This document shows, one piece after another, positions 1 to 58,274 of a DNA stretch of 64,000 nucleotides. The notes beneath the pieces are model-generated. The model was not told the origin of the DNA. It made no database searches and saw nothing but the letters and a program-made list of their open reading frames with translations. Position numbers and translations under genes: made by a program. How positions within the stretch are numbered: position 1 is the first letter of the stretch; each line of letters begins with the position of its first letter. Origin of the DNA: Ignavibacteriales bacterium (lineage in GTDB: Bacteria; Bacteroidota; Ignavibacteria; Ignavibacteriales; Ignavibacteriaceae); NCBI GenBank assembly GCA_015709675.1, contig CP054182.1, positions 785,448 to 849,447 of the forward strand, read 5' to 3'.

Positions 1-38
1 CAACCTATTACGGAAATTAAATTAAAAAAATATTAGCT

Positions 39-1304
39 ATGCATAATGAATACATCAATAGTTTGATTTTACGGCTTTGTAAGCAACCTCGAACTTTTGA
101 ATTCATTTCAAAGAATTTCAGTGGACACGACCCAATCCAACTAAGGGATGCCCTTGAAATATTAGAGAACAAAGGATCGTTATATAAGCAAAGCGATATG
201 TGGTCCGTAAAAGAGGATAAGAAAACACCCACTTTTGATTTACTTTCAGAAGACCCACAACTTTACCTAAAAAAGTACATGGGGTACTTTGATTTTCTAA
301 AAATTCCACATCCTTTAGATTTTGAGTGGAGAAATTCTACTGCAAGTTTGAATTATTTGATTAATGAAATTCAAGAGATAAATTCTGTAAACGACAGAAT
401 TTTATTATTGGGAATGCCAACACTGTTTGCGACTGCGTGTATAAAAGATATCCCTCAAAAAATTACTTTGGTTGAAAGAAACAAACCCATTGTGCGAGGT
501 TTATCGAAATTAAGCGCTGATAAGGTTAGATTTCGAATTCTTGAAGCAGATATTTTTGAAGTTTCACCCAAAGCTATTGGTAAATTTTACAGTGTAATAA
601 TGGATCCACCTTGGTATTCACCTCACTTTTATCAATTCATGTGGTTGGCTGCTCAATGTGTTGAATTGGGTGGGGTTATTGGTATAAGTTTGCCACCTAT
701 CAATACTCGACCTAAAATTGAAAAGGAAAGAATTGATTGGTTTTCGTTTTGTCAGCAACAGGGCTTGTGTTTAGAAAATTTGTTTGCTCAGAAGTTGCAC
801 TATGCAATGCCATTCTTTGAGTTTAATGCTTTTCGTTCAGCCGGGGTAACAAATATTTCCCCTTTTTGGCGTAAAGGTGATTTTGCGTTATTCCGCAAGG
901 TTCATTCTGCTGCCATTGAAAGACCTGAATTTAATGAAACAAAACCTAAATGGGTTGAAAGGGATATTGATACTGTCCGAATAAGGGTTAAGGTTGATGA
1001 GTGTTCTGTAACTAATGATTTGGAAATACTGAGCCTAATAAAAGGTGATATACTTCCAACGGTGAGTACCAGAGATAAACGAAGGGACCTGGCGAATGTT
1101 TGGACTTCGGGGAACAGAATATTTAAAGTGAATAACACAAAGAAATTTGTTAAGTTGCTTGACGATTTTAAAACTGGTAAACGAATAACGAAAGAACTAA
1201 AACTCGTTGCAGATTTTGTAAATGCAATTACAGGATTTGAGAAAGGAGAATACAATAACTATCTAGACTGGCTATATCATGAAATGGAAAGGCAAACTAA
1301 TTAA
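39..1304 (+). CDS. Winged-helix plus DPPW-type methyltransferase-like protein
   Basis: A 421-residue soluble protein. The first ~60 residues alternate short helices and read like a winged-helix DNA-binding or dimerisation module. From about residue 115 a Rossmann fold is suggested: a glycine loop LLLGMP at 122-127 ending a beta strand, an acidic LVER a strand later, and DPPWY at 189-193. DPPW is the catalytic motif of N6-adenine methyltransferases of the MT-A70 and related classes, so an amino group on a nucleobase is the expected target. The C-terminal ~150 residues are lysine-rich and unassigned. It is the first gene of an overlapping three-gene operon; the next ORF starts 26 bases before its stop. 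Base composition is clearly AT-richer than the genes after 3879, suggesting transfer. Enzyme class is inferred from motifs; the substrate is unknown. Confidence 0.6.
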   Translation: MHNEYINSLILRLCKQPRTFEFISKNFSGHDPIQLRDALEILENKGSLYKQSDMWSVKEDKKTPTFDLLSEDPQLYLKKYMGYFDFLKIPHPLDFEWRNSTASLNYLINEIQEINSVNDRILLLGMPTLFATACIKDIPQKITLVERNKPIVRGLSKLSADKVRFRILEADIFEVSPKAIGKFYSVIMDPPWYSPHFYQFMWLAAQCVELGGVIGISLPPINTRPKIEKERIDWFSFCQQQGLCLENLFAQKLHYAMPFFEFNAFRSAGVTNISPFWRKGDFALFRKVHSAAIERPEFNETKPKWVERDIDTVRIRVKVDECSVTNDLEILSLIKGDILPTVSTRDKRRDLANVWTSGNRIFKVNNTKKFVKLLDDFKTGKRITKELKLVADFVNAITGFEKGEYNNYLDWLYHEMERQTN

Positions 1305-1806
1305 TTACTTGATTGAACAACTGAAGGAAGATTCTCAATGGGGAAATACTATTGAGCACTTGCTGTTTGATCTGTCTATTGGAATTCACTTGGCAATTTT
1401 TAATGAGCCGTTTTTATCTCTTGTTTATAAAAAGGAAAAGAAAATTGAATCAAGGTTTTCGGTAAATCGAAGAATTCCATTTGAAAGAGTAAAAAAGGGT
1501 GATGTGATTATTCTGAAAGAATCCGGTAGTTTTGTTACTGGTGTTTTTGTTGCAGGTGAGGTAAATTTTTTTCATTTGGCAGATAAAGAGACTCTCAAAT
1601 ATATTGAAGCGAATTTTGGAAAAGCAATTTGTGCAGATTATGATACTAACTTTTGGAAAAACAGAGCAAAGTCAAAGTATGCCACTTTAATTGAAGTAAA
1701 AAAGATAAAAAAGATAGCACCATATAAAAGTGAAAAGAAAGATAGAAGCGGGTGGTCAATTTTGAGAGAAGGAATTTCGGAAGACCTGTTTACACAATCA
1801 AAATGA
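1279..1806 (+). CDS. ASCH/PUA-like domain protein
   Basis: A 175-residue protein. Residues ~70-100 hold the strand-turn pattern KKGDVIILKESG followed by a V-x-G strand, and ~124-140 hold FWKNRAKSKYATLIEV, then KKDRSGW near the C terminus. This order (a KxGD turn, a strand with GEV, and KYATLI followed by a tryptophan near the end) matches PUA-fold ASCH-type domains, which bind RNA or modified nucleotides. It overlaps the preceding gene by 26 bases and shares an ATGA stop/start with the following kinase, so the three are translationally coupled. A reader of, or processing factor for, a modified base is a reasonable role given its partners, but nothing in the sequence proves a ligand. The start at 1279 is the only ATG that gives a full domain. 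Confidence 0.55.
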   Translation: MKWKGKLINYLIEQLKEDSQWGNTIEHLLFDLSIGIHLAIFNEPFLSLVYKKEKKIESRFSVNRRIPFERVKKGDVIILKESGSFVTGVFVAGEVNFFHLADKETLKYIEANFGKAICADYDTNFWKNRAKSKYATLIEVKKIKKIAPYKSEKKDRSGWSILREGISEDLFTQSK

Positions 1807-2354
1807 AGTTAAAGTCTATAATCACAATAAGTGGTCGTATCTGTTCGGGAAAGTCGTATATTGCAAAATTGATTCAAGCCGAATATGGATTCCCAATAGC
1901 TTCATTCGGCGTTTACTTGAAATATTATTGCGTGAAAAATGGTTTGCCTACTGACAGGAAAGCACTTCAAGATACTGGTGAAGCATTTGTGAAGGAAAGT
2001 CCTAAGAGGTTTTTGAGTGATGTGCTTTCACATTTTATTGGCTTTTCAAATATAATTGTATTGGAAGGAGTAAGACATAGATCAATCCTTGAAGAAGTAT
2101 ATCAGCTAACCGAAAACCACTTGACGATTTTCGCTGAAGCTGATTTTGAAACTCGTTTTAAAAGATATTATTCAAGAAATAAAGATACAGATGAAGTAAA
2201 AACCCTTGAGTACTTTAAAGAAGCAGATAATCATCCCGTTGAACATGATATAGCATTCTTAAAATTTCTTTGCAATCTTTCAGTTGATTCTACATCAGAC
2301 AAAGATATTTCACCAGAGTTATTTACATTCCTTTCACATAAACTAAAAAGGTAA
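1803..2354 (+). CDS. P-loop nucleotide/nucleoside kinase-like protein
   Basis: A 183-residue protein of the small P-loop kinase type (dNMP kinase, adenylate kinase or dephospho-CoA kinase-like). Walker A is GRICSGKS at residues 11-18 directly after the first strand. Further on, NIIVLEGVRHRS has the look of the Walker B strand, and a basic stretch FETRFKRYYSRNKDT resembles the arginine-rich lid of dNMP and CoA kinases. I chose the ATG at 1803 because it overlaps the upstream stop as ATGA and places the P-loop at the usual distance from the N terminus; a longer reading from 1752 only adds residues in the overlap. Phage hypermodification systems use kinases of this class on modified deoxynucleotides; that link is by analogy. 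The exact substrate cannot be read from the sequence. Confidence 0.65.
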   Translation: MKLKSIITISGRICSGKSYIAKLIQAEYGFPIASFGVYLKYYCVKNGLPTDRKALQDTGEAFVKESPKRFLSDVLSHFIGFSNIIVLEGVRHRSILEEVYQLTENHLTIFAEADFETRFKRYYSRNKDTDEVKTLEYFKEADNHPVEHDIAFLKFLCNLSVDSTSDKDISPELFTFLSHKLKR

Positions 2355-2435
2355 ATAGGATTTAAAAAGGCTTTGCCAAAAATGTCTCTTTTGGCTTTGA
2401 TTGAGCAATTTGTTGAGCATGTTTATATCTAAAAG

Positions 2436-3002
2436 CTAATCTCTACGAAGTTCCCATATTTTCCAAAGTGCATAATCAATAACTTGAACTTCAATATTTT
2501 GCTCACTTGCGTATGGTCTGATATTGGTCAAATAATTCAGATAATCACCAATTGAAAAGTTATGGGTTATAGAAGGTAAAACCGGATCTCTTTCGTTAAT
2601 TTCATCCCAGGTACGAAAATCAATTATTCCATACAACTCTGGATAATATAGTGTTAGTATTGCTGATGCAATTCCGAGACCAACCCCAGGTAAAGACCTT
2701 AAAATATTAATTCTAACTCTTGTTAAAATATTGTAATCGTGGTGATTTAAGATTAGTGCGGTTTTCGTAACCTCGTTTATCATTTGCTTGTTTAAATATT
2801 GCAAATGATGATTGACTCTATGTATTTGGTCGCCAAGTTTCCATTGAATAATTTGGTTAAATAGACCCTCTGATAAACCTTGATTTGGAAAATGAATCCG
2901 ATAGGTCTGAATACTGCTTTTGAGTAAATTCGTTTGTTGCCATTCTTGACTATTTTGCCAATTGTCGTTTAATAAAAATTCAGTTACTCTATCTTGCCAC
3001 AT
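2436..3002 (-). CDS. Helix-hairpin-helix glycosylase-like protein
   Basis: A 188-residue protein convergent with the kinase gene. The core is LPGVGLGIASAIL, a helix-hairpin-helix of the base-excision glycosylase superfamily, followed about 15 residues later by IIDFRTWDE, where the aspartate sits where the catalytic Asp of HhH-GPD enzymes lies. The iron-sulphur cysteines of EndoIII are absent and the protein is shorter than classical glycosylases. The same fold also includes the thymine-modifying pyrophosphorylase-like enzymes described for phage DNA hypermodification, so either removing or installing a modified base is possible. Its AT-rich composition matches the three genes before it, which argues they arrived together. 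No ribosome-binding site is obvious. Family assignment to the HhH fold is good; function is inference. Confidence 0.6.
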   Translation of the reverse strand: MWQDRVTEFLLNDNWQNSQEWQQTNLLKSSIQTYRIHFPNQGLSEGLFNQIIQWKLGDQIHRVNHHLQYLNKQMINEVTKTALILNHHDYNILTRVRINILRSLPGVGLGIASAILTLYYPELYGIIDFRTWDEINERDPVLPSITHNFSIGDYLNYLTNIRPYASEQNIEVQVIDYALWKIWELRRD

Positions 3003-3498
3003 AGTTTAAGTGCCAAACCATTGCCTAACTGGAAACAAATCAGCAGTGTTTCGTAACAATATGGAAGAATTGTTTTTTTCGAAAACTCCCGAATTTTCAC
3101 GGTTCATCGGACTTAACTCATTAATGCGAATTTTTTTGAAAAAACTTCTATGGTTGTGTGGTTTCTCACCCATTTCCATAATCTCTGAAAGGTACCGTCT
3201 AAAAACTATTTATTTATTTGGCCAAATGCAAGTAAAATTTACCATTGGGCTGGGGTGCTCAAATCTGTAAGAAGATGGGATTTAGGGGGCTGGGTGGCGT
3301 TTATCTGTGGGAAAAGGAGTTTAAAAGCAGAGGGAGCATAATAATTGAGAGTGGATAATGCAGAATGGAAAACCCTGTGGCAAAGTATGGCCACTAAAGC
3401 CCGAACAAGGAAGGGTTTAACGCAAAGGGAGCAAAGTTGGCGTGAAGTAGCTAAGAGTTTTAATGCCGTTGTCCCCTGAAGAACACATGCGAGGGAAG
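3003..3498. other. Gene-free stretch after the AT-rich island
   Basis: About 500 bases with no convincing gene. An open frame at 3010-3270 has no recognisable domain, no ribosome-binding site and poor composition, and looks accidental. Base composition shifts from AT-rich to the window average somewhere in 3240-3500, so the right boundary of the island probably lies here. No integrase, tRNA or clear direct repeat marking an attachment site was seen. Confidence 0.5.
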
Positions 3499-3840
3499 TT
3501 TCCCGCAGATCTCGCAGATTAGCGCAGAAACCGCTACGATTTCCCTCCCGTACATTGTAAATTGTTCATTGTGCATTGGTTTGTTTCCCGCAGATCAGCG
3601 CAGAGACTGCTACTAATTCCCTCCTGTACATTGTAAATTGTTCATTGTGCATTGATTTGTTTCCCGCAGATTTCGCAGATTAGCGCAGAGACCGCTGCTA
3701 ATTCCCTCCTGTACATTGTTAATTGTGCATTGGTTTGTTTCCCGCAGATTACGCAGATCAGCGCAGAAACCGCTGCTAATTCCCTCATGTAAATTGTTCA
3801 TTGTACATTGATTTGTTTCCCGCAGATTAGCGTAGATCAG
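3499..3840. repeat. Five-copy ~80-bp intergenic tandem repeat
   Basis: Five imperfect copies of a unit beginning TTTCCCGCAGAT start near 3499, 3585, 3660, 3738 and 3816. Each continues with CGCAGATTAGCGCAGA, then CCGCTGCTAATTCCCTC and an AT-rich run built from words such as TACATTGTAAATTG. Period varies from 75 to 86 bases. An ORF reading through it on the minus strand (3613-3801) gives repeated peptides and is a by-product of the repeat. The array sits in the 3' region of corA. Confidence 0.85.
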
Positions 3841-5788: not shown

Positions 5789-8700
5789 TTATTTGAGAAG
5801 TTTTTTCAGGCACTTCTCAACAGCATCCTTAAAGCGCGCGAGGTTAACCGGCTTGCTGAATACATATTCAACGCCCAGATCATTATAAGCAAGAGTTTCG
5901 CTCTGCCCCACATCACCGCTGAGAATAATGACCGGAGGTTTCCCCTTGATGGTGGAGTATTGCAGGGTGCGGACAAAATCCAGACCGTTCATCACCGGCA
6001 TGATATGATCCATAATCACCAGAGCCGGTGCGGCGGTTTCAACTATCTTGAGTGCTTCTTTTCCGTTGGATGCCGTAATCACTTCATAATCATGCGTAAC
6101 GTTACGGATGATTTTTGAGTAAAGAATGCGGTCGGTGTTACTGTCATCAACCAGCAGAATAGAAGCTGAAGCTTTGGGGAGTGTAAAGATGAAAGATGAT
6201 CCTTCATTCTTTTTGCTCTCAGCCCAGATTCTGCCTCCGTGCCGGTTAATAATCTCCCAGACCAGCGTAAGGCCGAGTCCGGTTCCTTTTTCTCCCGCGG
6301 TTCCTTCGGTAGTGAGTTTAGAATCCAGTTTAAAAAGTTTCTGCAGGTTTTCCTCACTCATTCCCACACCGTTATCCCTTACGGTTATCTGCAGGAAGCG
6401 TGGATGCTCGGAGTGTTCTGCCAGAATCTCAATTCTTCCGCCGGGGCGGGTGAATTTCAGCGCGTTGGAAAGCAGATTGTTAAACACCTGCATCAGCAGT
6501 CCTTCATCAACAAAGACGTATATATCGTTATCTATATGACTGATGATCTCAATTTCTTTTTTCATTGCAACCCCCTGAACGGTCGAGATAATCTTTGAAG
6601 CAATGTCGGCAAGGTCATGCCGGTTTGGTTCAAAGTTTATTCTTCCGGTCTGAATCTTTGTCCAGTCAAGCAGGGAGTTCACCAGCGTGAGCATGCTCTG
6701 CGCGGAGTCGCGAATAAACCCGACGTAGCTGCGCATATCATCGGTTGTCAGATCGTTCTCATTCATCAGGATATCGGTAAAGCCCATGATGGAACTGAAC
6801 GGAGTGCGCAGGTCGTGGGAGATTATGGAAATAAAACGGTCTTTGGCTTCATTAAGTTTGGAAAGATTTTCAGCTGACTCCTGCAGCACCTGCTCAGCGT
6901 GTTTCTGAGCGGATATATCACTCACCAGGCCGTACATTTTGATAATCTCCCCTTTGCGGTCACGGATAGCGGTCAGTTTATTTCTCACCCACACCACATT
7001 CCCCTGTTTATGCAGAATACGGAAGACCAGTTCGGTGGATTTCTTGTAAAAGTTCTGATAGAATCTTTTCAGGTCATCCTTAACATCGGGGAAATCATCA
7101 GGATGAATCATCTTCAGGAAGAGTTTTGAATCTTCCAGAAGTTCGGTCTGCGAGTAGCCGGTCATCTTTTCAACCGCGGCTGAGTAAAAGATGGTTTTCA
7201 TCTGTCCCTTGAAGCGCTCGGCGGTCCAGAAGAAATCATCAAGGTTTTCGGTAATGCTGCGGTAGCGTTCTTCAGACTCTTTAATTGCCTGCTGGGTGCG
7301 TTTGCGTTCGGATATATCGCGGACGATAATAACGGTAAATTCCTGCTTCTGAAACATAAAGTGCGTCACAGAGGCCTCAATGTGAAAGCGGGCGCCGTCT
7401 TTTTTAATGCCGAGGAACTCAAGACGGTTTGTCCCCGCTGTTCCTGCCGCCCGGGAGTGTATATACTGTTCAAACAGGTTTTTTTCTTCGGGGGAAACGA
7501 TGGTGAAGTAATCCGTGCGGGTTAGTTCATCAAAAGAGCGGTAGCCGAACATGGCTATGAATGCATCGTTGGCAAGTATATATTTCCCTTCGCTTTCAAT
7601 AGCGATGCCGTCTTCACTGGTCGCAAAAACCGACTGCATCAGGGAGAGTTCTTTTTCAAAAACAAGCTGAGCGGTGATATCCCTGATAACCGCGGTAAAG
7701 GAGGGGTTTCCTTTTTCGTCGGGTATATCTTCAGAAACGCGCACCTGAGCCGTAAATGGTTTGCCGCCGGCTGTAAGAAATTCGGAGACAAACTCTTTGC
7801 CGGTGCTGGCGGTGGTCATCTCAGAAACCAGGCGGGTTTCAGTAACAAAATCATAGAGGGAAACGCCTCCGGAGGCAGGCGTGAAGCCAGCGGTTTTTTC
7901 AAATGCCTGGTTCCAGGTGAGCAAACGTCCTGCCGCGTTATATCTGATAACCATGTCGGGCAGCGTGTTATATACTTCATGCAGGCGTTTTACCTGTTCA
8001 TCAGCGCGGGCAAAGAGCCGGGTCCGTTCCGTGATATCCGAGCAGAGCAGCAGAATTTCCTCTTTTCCTTCAGCAGGGAAGAGGAGGGAAAAGATAAGCT
8101 GAACAACAATTTCGCGCTCCTGCAGATAATAGCGGACCTCCCGCTGAACCGGCTCATCAACGGTAATGTTTCTGATCAGGGAGTTAAATTCATCCTGTTC
8201 AAAAATCCTTAGTGTGCGGTTAAAATTCTTTCCGTATATCTGAGATCTGCTCAGGCCGAAGAGTTCTGCAGCAGCGGTATTCCAAAACAGAACATCACCT
8301 CTGCGGCTCAGGGTGATCACAGCATCGGCTGAAGCTTCGGTAATCTGTTCGTAGTGGCGGAGTTCTTCAATCTGCATCCTCAGTTCCTCGCTTTCACCAA
8401 GGAGACCGGTAACATCATGCAGGTGGATCAGGTGAAGCATCTTTCCCGGAAGGTCAGCATATATACTTGTAACGGAAGTCTCAATTTTTTTTGGTATTCC
8501 GTCCTGATATGCAGTAAAAAGGAAATGCCCCTTTTTGTTTTCTCCGTGAAGAATCAGATTTCTGCTGTCAAGTTCATCAAGCAGTTCCTGGGTGAATGCA
8601 TCGCGGAAGTAGGTTTCGCCCGGGTGAATTTTTTTCAGGAGCCAGCCGCATTCTCCCTGCCTGCCTGAAACGGTAAGAGCTTTTCCGTTTCCGTCAAAAG

Positions 8701-56408: not shown

Positions 56409-57149
56409 ATGGCCGCAGAAAAATTACTGATTGATAAAATTGAGCACCGGTTCAGCGGAAAGCCCTTCTTCGAAGCTCGTGAAATAGCCGCTTTCTACAG
56501 GATGAAAGAGAAGGAAATTTCCCCGGCAGCGATAAACTGGAGAATTCATTTTCTTGTCAGATCGGGAGTTTTTCAGAGAATCGGAAAGGGAAAATATGTT
56601 CTCGGAAAAGGCAGGAGCTACTTCCCTGAAATCTCAGGAACGCTGAAAACGCTTTTCCTGAGAGTTACTGAAGAGTTTCCTTACAGCGATGTTTGTATCT
56701 GGAACACCTCCTCGTTCAATGAATTTATGCTGCACCAGCCCGCCAGGTTTTTTACTATTATTGAAATAAGCAAAGAAACATCTGAAGCGGCTTTTTATTT
56801 TCTGAAGGATTTGAAGAAACAGGTGTTTCTGGAACCCGACGAAGAGATTCTCGAAAAATATCTCTCGGGTGACAGAGAAGCATTTGTCGTAAAGCCGCTG
56901 GTCACCGAAGCACCGACACAAATTATTAAAGGGGTTACAACAGTCACATTGGAAAAAATGCTGGTTGACATATTTTGCGGTGAAGATATATTTGCTGTGC
57001 AGCAGGGAACTGAATTAAAAACGATTTTCAGAGAAGCACTTGTAAAATACACCGTTAACCGGAGCAGAATGATGCGTTATGCCGACCGGAGGGGAAAGAA
57101 AGAACAGCTTGGGCGGTTTTTAAAATCGTTTTCTAATTTACGGCAGTAA
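56409..57149 (+). CDS. AbiEi-like type IV antitoxin (DUF6577-type)
   Basis: A 246-residue protein preceding an AbiEii toxin gene. The N-terminal third is winged-helix-like (ISPAAINWRIHFLVRSGVFQ and RIGKGKYVLG), the usual DNA-binding part of AbiEi antitoxins; the rest includes VCIWNTSSFNEFMLHQPARF and ATQ-type strands with GVTTVTLEKMLVDIF, a phrase shared with this antitoxin group. It should neutralise the toxin indirectly and repress the operon. Its stop lies inside the second palindrome (57141-57165). The toxin follows 27 bases downstream. Confidence 0.8.
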   Translation: MAAEKLLIDKIEHRFSGKPFFEAREIAAFYRMKEKEISPAAINWRIHFLVRSGVFQRIGKGKYVLGKGRSYFPEISGTLKTLFLRVTEEFPYSDVCIWNTSSFNEFMLHQPARFFTIIEISKETSEAAFYFLKDLKKQVFLEPDEEILEKYLSGDREAFVVKPLVTEAPTQIIKGVTTVTLEKMLVDIFCGEDIFAVQQGTELKTIFREALVKYTVNRSRMMRYADRRGKKEQLGRFLKSFSNLRQ

Positions 57150-57176: not shown

Positions 57177-58274
57177 ATGATTAATCAGCGTGACGTAACA
57201 CCAGAGTGGCTGACTCAGAAAGCAAAACAGCATAACGGTACAGATAAAATACTAATTGAAAAAGTCATCCGGGCATTCCTGCTCCTTGAAGGAATTGTAA
57301 AGGTGAACATTCCCTTTATCTTCAAAGGAGGGACATCACTCATGCTTCTTTTTGACACCCCCAAGCGATTATCTATTGATATTGATGTTATTCTGGAGAA
57401 AAAACCAGAAATGTTTGAGGAGCAGCTGACCAGGGTGGCAAGAGAACAGGGTTTTTTCAAATGGGAGAAACAGCAGAGGAACACCAACTCAAAGATTGTA
57501 AAGGAGCATTACAGGTTTTTCTATGAACCGCTTCACAGGACGTTACAAACGGAAGAGTATATTCTTTTGGATGTACTGTATGAAAAATCCCCTTATACCC
57601 GGCTTATTTCTCTTCCAATTCAATCACCGGTTGTTCCTAATAAAGGTTTGCCACTTAGTGTAACCATTCCAAGCCAGGAAGATCTGCTCGGTGATAAACT
57701 AACCGCCTTTGCCCCAAACACAACGGGAATTCCTTATCAAAAAAAGGGGATAAGCATGAGTATGGAGATTATTAAGCAGCTTTATGACATTGGTAATTTA
57801 TTTGAGACGGTTACTGATTTGGACGTCGTTACATCAACGTTTCGCCGGATAGCCAATTTGGAATTAAACTACAGGGGCCTGACTCATATTTCAATTAATG
57901 AGGTTCTGGAAGATATATATAACAAATCTCTCTGCCTGATAACAAGGGGTAAGGATGGAAAAGGTGATTTTGAAATACTGCAAAAAGGAGTAAGAAGAGC
58001 AGCCGGTTATATTTTTTCTGAGAGTTATCATGTAGAAAAAGCAGTTAAGCATGCATCAAGAGCAGCATATCTTGCAGTACTAATCCAAAATAGCATTGCA
58101 GCTTTGGAAAAATATCACAGTCCGATCCAAATTGAAAATCAGCTGATAACTGAACCGGGCAGTTCAAAATTAAACAAGCTCAGGAAATCCGATCCAGAAT
58201 CGTTTTACTATTGGTATAAAATCGTTAAAATAATACGCTCCTCATCCGGACGAAAAAAACCCAAAGGTAATTGA
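57177..58274 (+). CDS. AbiEii-type nucleotidyltransferase toxin
   Basis: A 365-residue nucleotidyltransferase toxin of the AbiEii/AbiGii family. Catalytic region FKGGTSLMLLFDTPKRLSID has GGTS at 51-54 and the metal-binding SIDID at 66-70; further conserved phrases are EDLLGDKLTAFAPNTTG and KQLYDIGNLF. Members transfer nucleotides to tRNA 3' ends or other targets and cause abortive phage defence. All motifs appear intact. It is encoded after its antitoxin and has no clear ribosome-binding site of its own, implying low or coupled translation. Confidence 0.9.
   Translation: MINQRDVTPEWLTQKAKQHNGTDKILIEKVIRAFLLLEGIVKVNIPFIFKGGTSLMLLFDTPKRLSIDIDVILEKKPEMFEEQLTRVAREQGFFKWEKQQRNTNSKIVKEHYRFFYEPLHRTLQTEEYILLDVLYEKSPYTRLISLPIQSPVVPNKGLPLSVTIPSQEDLLGDKLTAFAPNTTGIPYQKKGISMSMEIIKQLYDIGNLFETVTDLDVVTSTFRRIANLELNYRGLTHISINEVLEDIYNKSLCLITRGKDGKGDFEILQKGVRRAAGYIFSESYHVEKAVKHASRAAYLAVLIQNSIAALEKYHSPIQIENQLITEPGSSKLNKLRKSDPESFYYWYKIVKIIRSSSGRKKPKGN

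Follow-up and report, generated by a model that had tools for sequence, protein, structure and literature searches.

A horizontally spread operon with a radical SAM protein, DUF4186, and a nucleotide kinase, possibly devoted to modified-nucleotide chemistry

Introduction

Several described systems hold part of the gene set presented here. Prokaryotic viperins accompanied by nucleotide kinases combine a radical S-adenosylmethionine (SAM) protein with a P-loop nucleotide kinase, are mobile and patchily distributed, and make the production of modified nucleotides plausible; forming ddh-nucleotides from CTP, GTP, or UTP is a hallmark of viperins. The (PIN)-GNAT-EVE operons carry an ASCH gene beside a P-loop kinase of the AAA_17/18 type, sometimes with an XRE-type helix-turn-helix (HTH) protein (PMC7641849). 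In CapH/CapP, PprI/DdrO, and RosmerTA (RmrA), an XRE-type HTH and an M78 peptidase with an HExxH motif head the operon. Single-stranded DNA (ssDNA) has been shown to activate the M78 peptidase PprI and is reported to activate CapP as well (PMC10904395). These elements come together in an operon of an Ignavibacteriales bacterium, which runs into the left edge of a 64,000-nucleotide stretch ("the window") cut from a 4.21-Mb single-contig genome and starting at C1:785448 (C1 being contig CP054182.1). It encodes a fused HTH-peptidase regulator, a DUF4186 protein, a radical SAM protein, a methyltransferase (MT)-like protein, an ASCH protein, and a putative nucleoside monophosphate (NMP) kinase.

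Gene content and conservation of the operon

The three plus-strand genes at the left edge of the window form the 3' half of an operon of six to seven closely packed genes, residing on a low-GC island (Table 1). Its composition is (DUF4160 or DUF6932)-[XRE-HTH + ImmA/IrrE peptidase]-DUF4186-radical SAM-MT-like-ASCH-NMP kinase. The left flank, taken from locus L003 (C1:780448-795447; window position = L003 position - 5000), holds the DUF4160, HTH-M78, DUF4186, and radical SAM genes, all on the plus strand. The radical SAM gene stops at window base 36, and the MT-like gene begins 3 bases later. In this genome, the intergenic distances of the operon range from a 26-base overlap (1279-1304, between the MT-like and ASCH genes) to +12 bases, with an ATGA overlap (1803-1806) between the ASCH and kinase genes. 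The guanine plus cytosine (GC) content of the block is 32-37% vs 42-50% on both flanks.

Table 1. Features of the operon and its surroundings (C1 and L003 positions are given where available)
Feature	Window position	Strand	C1 and L003 position	Length and motifs
DUF4160 gene		+	C1:782091-782348; L003 1626/1644-1901	91 aa as listed, 85 aa from inner ATG
XRE-HTH + M78 (ImmA/IrrE) peptidase gene		+	C1:782345-783865; L003 1898-3418	506 aa
DUF4186 gene		+	C1:783878-784489; L003 3431-4042	203 aa
Radical SAM gene	1..36 (last 36 bases)	+	C1:784476-785483; L003:4029-5036 (whole gene)	335 aa
MT-like gene	39..1304	+		421 aa; winged-helix N-terminus, Rossmann domain with DPPWY, conserved C-terminal VSxRDxxR...WTSGNR
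ASCH/PUA-like gene	1279..1806	+		175 aa; K-x-I-E-S-R-F motif
P-loop NMP-kinase-like gene	1803..2354	+		183 aa; GRICSGKS; SFG; LQ..G; EG.RH
Helix-hairpin-helix (HhH)-like gene	2436-3002	-		convergent on kinase gene; outside conserved unit
Imperfect tandem repeat	3471-3836			~78 bp
AbiEi/AbiEii-type pair	56409-57146 + 57177-58271	+

An original prediction, made from the letters of the window, had described the three overlapping plus-strand reading frames and the convergent minus-strand one, all of which are confirmed, and had suspected the continuation to the left. It had closed them into a four-gene unit; this boundary was misplaced, as the unit runs on leftward and leaves out the HhH-like gene. 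The four further genes on the left were overlooked because the window starts mid-operon. The winged-helix/DPPW methyltransferase-like, ASCH, and P-loop kinase labels hold, while that of the HhH-like product draws on a single LPGVG motif. The three plus-strand frames are real genes, since other loci supply 66-78 usable homologues of each, nearly all of which keep the catalytic motifs.

Loci were collected with the radical SAM family as bait: 84,980 species' genomes were scanned, 88 loci were confirmed, and 80 were kept. Gene presence was counted by profile searches in the 64 loci that have 3.3 kb or more of sequence on each side. The radical SAM protein is accompanied most constantly by the NMP-kinase-like protein (63/64), followed by ASCH (62), M78 (60), DUF4186 (59), and the MT-like protein (58), the latter being absent from six loci that retain the rest or most of the operon. 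The exact order M78-DUF4186-radical SAM-MT-ASCH-kinase occurs in 31 of the 64 loci, and eight more add DUF4160 in front. DUF4160 is found in 14 loci, and another small protein, DUF6932, occupies the same place in about 56. Spacing is tight, with gaps of at most 30 bp in 54/74 M78>DUF4186, 64/75 DUF4186>radical SAM, and 66/69 ASCH>kinase pairs. Fusions join ASCH to the kinase in two loci (L031 and L043), to the MT-like protein in one (L066), and to DUF4186 in another (L049). The cassette genes have largely travelled together, because their pairwise divergences correlate (Spearman 0.32-0.55 for all tested pairs; 0/300 permutations as high). The co-occurrence in unrelated genomes that was to be checked for four genes applies to three of them, almost universal beside radical SAM, DUF4186, and M78 across about 15 phyla; the HhH-like gene never accompanies them there.

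The Chloroflexi locus L049 is a rearranged version, with a divergent radical SAM gene, the ASCH-DUF4186 fusion, two kinases including a deoxynucleoside kinase (dNK), and a TylF-like methyltransferase candidate. A DUF763 gene lies just after the kinase gene in four alphaproteobacterial loci (L009, L079, L081, and L082; PF05559 3.7e-121 in L082).

Horizontal spread and distribution

The operon is mobile and has spread horizontally among about 15 phyla. The radical SAM search gathered 80 loci from chromosomes or metagenome-assembled genomes and 7 plasmid records, under 15 phylum labels, in one thaumarchaeal assembly and in bacteria as diverse as cyanobacteria, rhizobia, and actinomycetes. The plasmids belong to Nostocales cyanobacteria, Rhizobium, and Roseovarius; six of the seven records are typed conjugative, and the five plasmid neighbourhoods examined display the same gene order. 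The tree of the radical SAM proteins requires 27 changes of phylum label for 15 labels, where 14 is the minimum, and it splits each of Ignavibacteria, Chloroflexota, Acidobacteriota, and Planctomycetota. The transferred unit proposed in the original prediction is borne out.

The closest relative of the window's radical SAM copy comes from a Chitinophagaceae genome (80% identity). A genome of the same genus (88% complete) yielded no radical SAM relative, and synteny with it begins only to the right of the island, on the CorA side. Among 296 genomes of the phylum, the full-length MT-like protein occurs only in the window's own. In Tolypothrix, cassette genes are listed inside an 18.4-kb insertion of strain PCC 7712 relative to PCC 7601 (PMC9679502). 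Recombinases or conjugation genes adjoin a number of loci. No long terminal repeats were seen flanking the island, only a local tandem repeat on the right, which lies in the noncoding gap between the HhH-like gene and CorA (Table 1).

A phage origin was rejected: searches of 2.9 million viral contigs and 50,697 phage records gave no relative of the radical SAM protein. This negative result also weakens the analogy with phage DNA hypermodification that had been drawn for these genes.

Predicted properties of the component proteins

The regulator matches HTH_3 (1.6e-14) and Peptidase_M78 (3e-6) above cut-off, and HExxH is retained in 75 of 77 regulators. By its sequence, an XRE-HTH followed by HExxH, it is classed as an ImmA/IrrE (M78) regulator, and its best PADLOC match is RmrA (1.5e-14). 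A DUF2442 identity for its N-terminal 91 residues was rejected, as these have no Pfam match. By analogy with the M78 families introduced above, the fused HTH-M78 architecture suggests release by ssDNA or DNA damage.

The radical SAM protein carries the cluster motif CxxxCxxC (CNWRCWYC in the window), conserved in 85/85 homologues, and a Radical_SAM domain match of 4e-6 (27.5 bits, just under the 29.5 cut-off). These two features place it, at the sequence level, in the radical SAM superfamily. Other conserved motifs are the N-terminal DL-x-x-P-x-NC-x-G-x-GR as well as GGQPDL, WSDDNLS, and CCFKG. No named radical SAM family is assignable, the best NCBIfam scores being ~20 bits vs cut-offs of 130-850, and no SPASM family matches at cut-off. 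Viperin membership was rejected (21.3 bits, E 1.3e-4, vs the NF038283 cut-off of 180 bits); the PADLOC pVip match (4.4e-6) is partial and covers the radical SAM core only. DUF4186 possesses two Cys/His clusters, C24-C29-H34-C52-C55 and H147-C152-C153-C156. Its structure model (predicted local distance difference test score, pLDDT, 94.3) gives no Foldseek match to solved structures at E<=0.001 and no Z>=5 in a second comparison, which does not by itself prove a new fold.

The AlphaFold model of the MT-like protein (pLDDT 87.8) has a winged-helix-like N-terminus, and its catalytic domain is closest in fold to the branched-chain polyamine synthase BpsA (Z 21.0, 3.2 Å over 224 residues; Foldseek 1.6e-11). 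The next unrelated methyltransferase reaches Z 17.7. The ordinary rRNA/tRNA methyltransferase, against which the original prediction was to be checked, is thereby outranked as a fold match; numerous methyltransferases, some of them acting on RNA, nonetheless lie at Z 16-17, and an RNA substrate is possible for this reason. The GDDD motif is indispensable in Tk-BpsA (PMC12979288). BpsA membership by motif was rejected: GDDD is absent from the window protein, which has LLLGMPTLF at the motif-I position, and is no conserved column of the family. DPPW, in turn, is retained in 63 of 66 homologues. Because GDDD is missing while DPPWY is kept, the fold suggests alkyl transfer with the acceptor left unspecified. 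PF10237 (N6-adenineMlase, EFM5-like) is the family that most MT-like members match: 26/38 do so at E<=0.1 (best 1.9e-8), the window protein scoring 15.4 bits vs the 23.2 cut-off.

Distant MT-like homologues form a second uncharacterised context on alphaproteobacterial plasmids (L011-L014, around 6000-6900), beside a metallophosphoesterase gene and, in two of them, an adenylosuccinate-synthetase-like gene. The homologue of L012 is 27% identical to the window protein, shares DPPWY and VSxR...W(T/S)S, and stands next to AAA-ATPase and UvrD genes resembling Gabija.

In the ASCH family, 32 of 39 members match PF04266. The catalytic residues of the ASCH amidohydrolase YqfB are Lys21, Thr24, Arg26, and Glu74 (PMC6972931). 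Within the KxxExR motif, the Lys and Arg are kept in the present family, and nearly every sequence has Glu, or in a few cases Asp, at the nucleophile position. A YqfB-type amidohydrolase was rejected on this ground; Glu in place of the Thr nucleophile favours a predicted role in binding rather than hydrolysis. The kinase matches AAA_18 (1.6e-7) and comes nearest, among solved proteins, to those resembling UPF0200/AdkA and to the ADK and CMP kinase fold.

Further nucleotide enzymes join the operon in some loci. A DCD/dUTPase-family gene lies between DUF4186 and radical SAM in five loci (Ignavibacteria, Spirosoma, and three Acidobacteriota) and elsewhere in two more, a dGTPase gene adjoins the operon in five cyanobacteria, and the dNK belongs to L049. 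The DCD/dUTPase inserts (L016:7233-7973, L048:7189-7968, L040:7226-7978, also L060 and L074) end in a C-terminal hydrophobic stretch. Judged by eye without a reference alignment, the position of the dCTP-deaminase catalytic Glu looks Arg/Lys, and the dUTPase-type Asp is kept.

Proposed function and alternative explanations

The constant NMP kinase, the ASCH fusions, and the repeated recruitment of nucleotide enzymes point to nucleotide chemistry. Our best explanation, held tentatively, is a mobile, protease-controlled operon that makes or handles a modified (deoxy)nucleotide upon DNA damage or invasion, possibly as antiviral defence. Host defence would fit best because the operon is mobile, has damage-type control, and is absent from the phage sets searched. 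In a conceivable order of steps and direction of reaction, the fused repressor/peptidase would keep the operon off; ssDNA or damaged DNA, e.g., upon phage or plasmid entry, would trigger cleavage by the peptidase and derepression, on the pattern of PprI-DdrO and CapP-CapH. In an obligate partnership with DUF4186, the radical SAM enzyme would change a (deoxy)nucleotide or base, to which the MT-like enzyme would attach a group in most versions, this step being optional. The kinase would lift the product to its active phosphate, the ASCH protein would bind the modified nucleotide or base, and the product would poison the replication of the invader or mark nucleic acid.

The following points count against this proposal: none of the tools used identified a substrate, the regulator is linked to DNA damage by family analogy, the dCTP-deaminase, dGTPase, and dNK accessory genes occur in a minority of loci, and defence genes turn up in the control set as well as in the flanks. 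On the last point, PADLOC found pAgo, AbiE, MADS, type I restriction-modification (RM), and other defence genes among 121 flanking proteins, and AbiE and RM genes too among 68 controls from the window surroundings and the relatives' loci. No defence-island enrichment is claimed, because of these control matches. The window itself harbors an AbiEi/AbiEii-type toxin-antitoxin pair (Table 1; PADLOC 8.4e-83 and 9.2e-129), recorded in the control set, whose proteins were picked by eye.

More doubtful, though possible, is the specific version of an immune or conflict system, hitherto unnamed, whose modified nucleotide would be built by a new radical SAM family together with DUF4186, as a zinc protein of unseen fold, then activated by the kinase and bound by the ASCH protein, after an ssDNA-sensing repressor-protease has switched the operon on. 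Such chemistry would be undescribed in any defence system.

A somewhat unlikely alternative is self-marking of nucleic acid, whereby the MT-like and radical SAM enzymes would place a modified base or side chain into the DNA or RNA of the host, the ASCH protein would read it, and the kinase would prepare the donor nucleotide. The retained DPPW, typical of N6-adenine/N4-cytosine methyltransferases, and the binding of modified bases by ASCH/PUA domains (PMC7641849) speak for it, whereas the conserved set lacks a nuclease or other effector, the MT gene is missing from six of the 64 loci, the nearest fold, BpsA, acts on a small molecule, and the radical SAM enzyme has no phage homologues in the sets searched. 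Of the original idea that the genes make, read, or remove a modified base, modified-nucleotide chemistry stays plausible, and the specific making, reading, or removal of a DNA base finds no support.

Unlikely as well is a non-defensive role: a stress-induced pathway would salvage or sanitize nucleotides that have been damaged, and mobile elements would disseminate it as a fitness trait. The dGTPase-, dUTPase/DCD-, and dNK-like partners, the NMP kinase, and the DNA-damage-type regulator would suit it, but the distribution is very patchy (88 confirmed loci in 84,980 species; full-length MT in 1/296 genomes of the phylum) and, together with carriage on conjugative plasmids, looks more conflict-like than housekeeping.

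Modification of a peptide or protein by the radical SAM enzyme is improbable. It would resemble the maturation of ribosomally synthesized and post-translationally modified peptides, or act on a toxin or a targeted protein, while the small upstream gene and the HTH-peptidase would form a toxin-antitoxin pair. Peptide maturation is common among radical SAM enzymes, the weak NCBIfam matches include such maturases, PF10237 includes protein-lysine methyltransferases, and DUF4160/DUF6932 next to an XRE protein resembles a toxin-antitoxin pair. Against this stand the little room left for a conserved precursor by abutting or overlapping genes, the nucleotide kinase as the most constant partner, and the lack of a SPASM family at cut-off.

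Hardly credible, finally, is the original four-gene cassette with an HhH glycosylase-like gene that would remove a modified base: this gene adjoins the operon, converges on it, and is low in GC too, but it was found in one of 86 loci, that of the window, and has its relatives in haloarchaeal pleomorphic viruses and one Deinococcus plasmid, which refutes the cassette as a conserved unit. The HhH-like product has no Pfam family at cut-off and matches only phrog_24538 (function unknown, 6.7e-11). Its relatives in Haloarcula hispanica pleomorphic viruses 3 and 4 (26% identity over 91%) are an unusual archaeal-virus link for a bacterial gene.

If the proposal of a damage- or invasion-induced modified-nucleotide operon is true, the operon would be among the more complex conserved ones still unnamed, making a new kind of nucleotide or base. 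DUF4186, an otherwise enigmatic family whose E. coli member is yneG, would gain a function, and culturable laboratory organisms such as Nostoc, Tolypothrix, and Bradyrhizobium would offer a candidate immune system open to direct testing.

Comparison with known systems

None of the PADLOC 2023 system models matches the whole gene set, which gives generic HTH/M78, pVip, and weak kinase matches only. A full-text literature search on DUF4186, DUF6932, and radical SAM + ASCH + kinase + defence, with preprints and subscription papers outside its coverage, turned up no description of the operon. The earlier statement that no named system has this gene set thus agrees with the libraries and papers searched.

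The described systems each differ from the operon in defined ways. In contrast to CapH/CapP, PprI/DdrO, and RosmerTA, the HTH and the peptidase are here in one protein, and other genes are controlled. No GNAT, PIN, or EVE domain was found in the cassette proteins; radical SAM, DUF4186, and MT-like genes are present instead of those of the (PIN)-GNAT-EVE operons. Unlike BpsA, its closest catalytic fold, the window's MT-like protein combines DPPWY with a C-terminal VSRRD...WTSGNR. Finally, the radical SAM protein lies far under the viperin cut-off, and DUF4186, MT-like, ASCH, and M78 partners are added to the radical SAM and kinase pair; if the proposed function is correct, the operon would carry the viperin principle into new chemistry.

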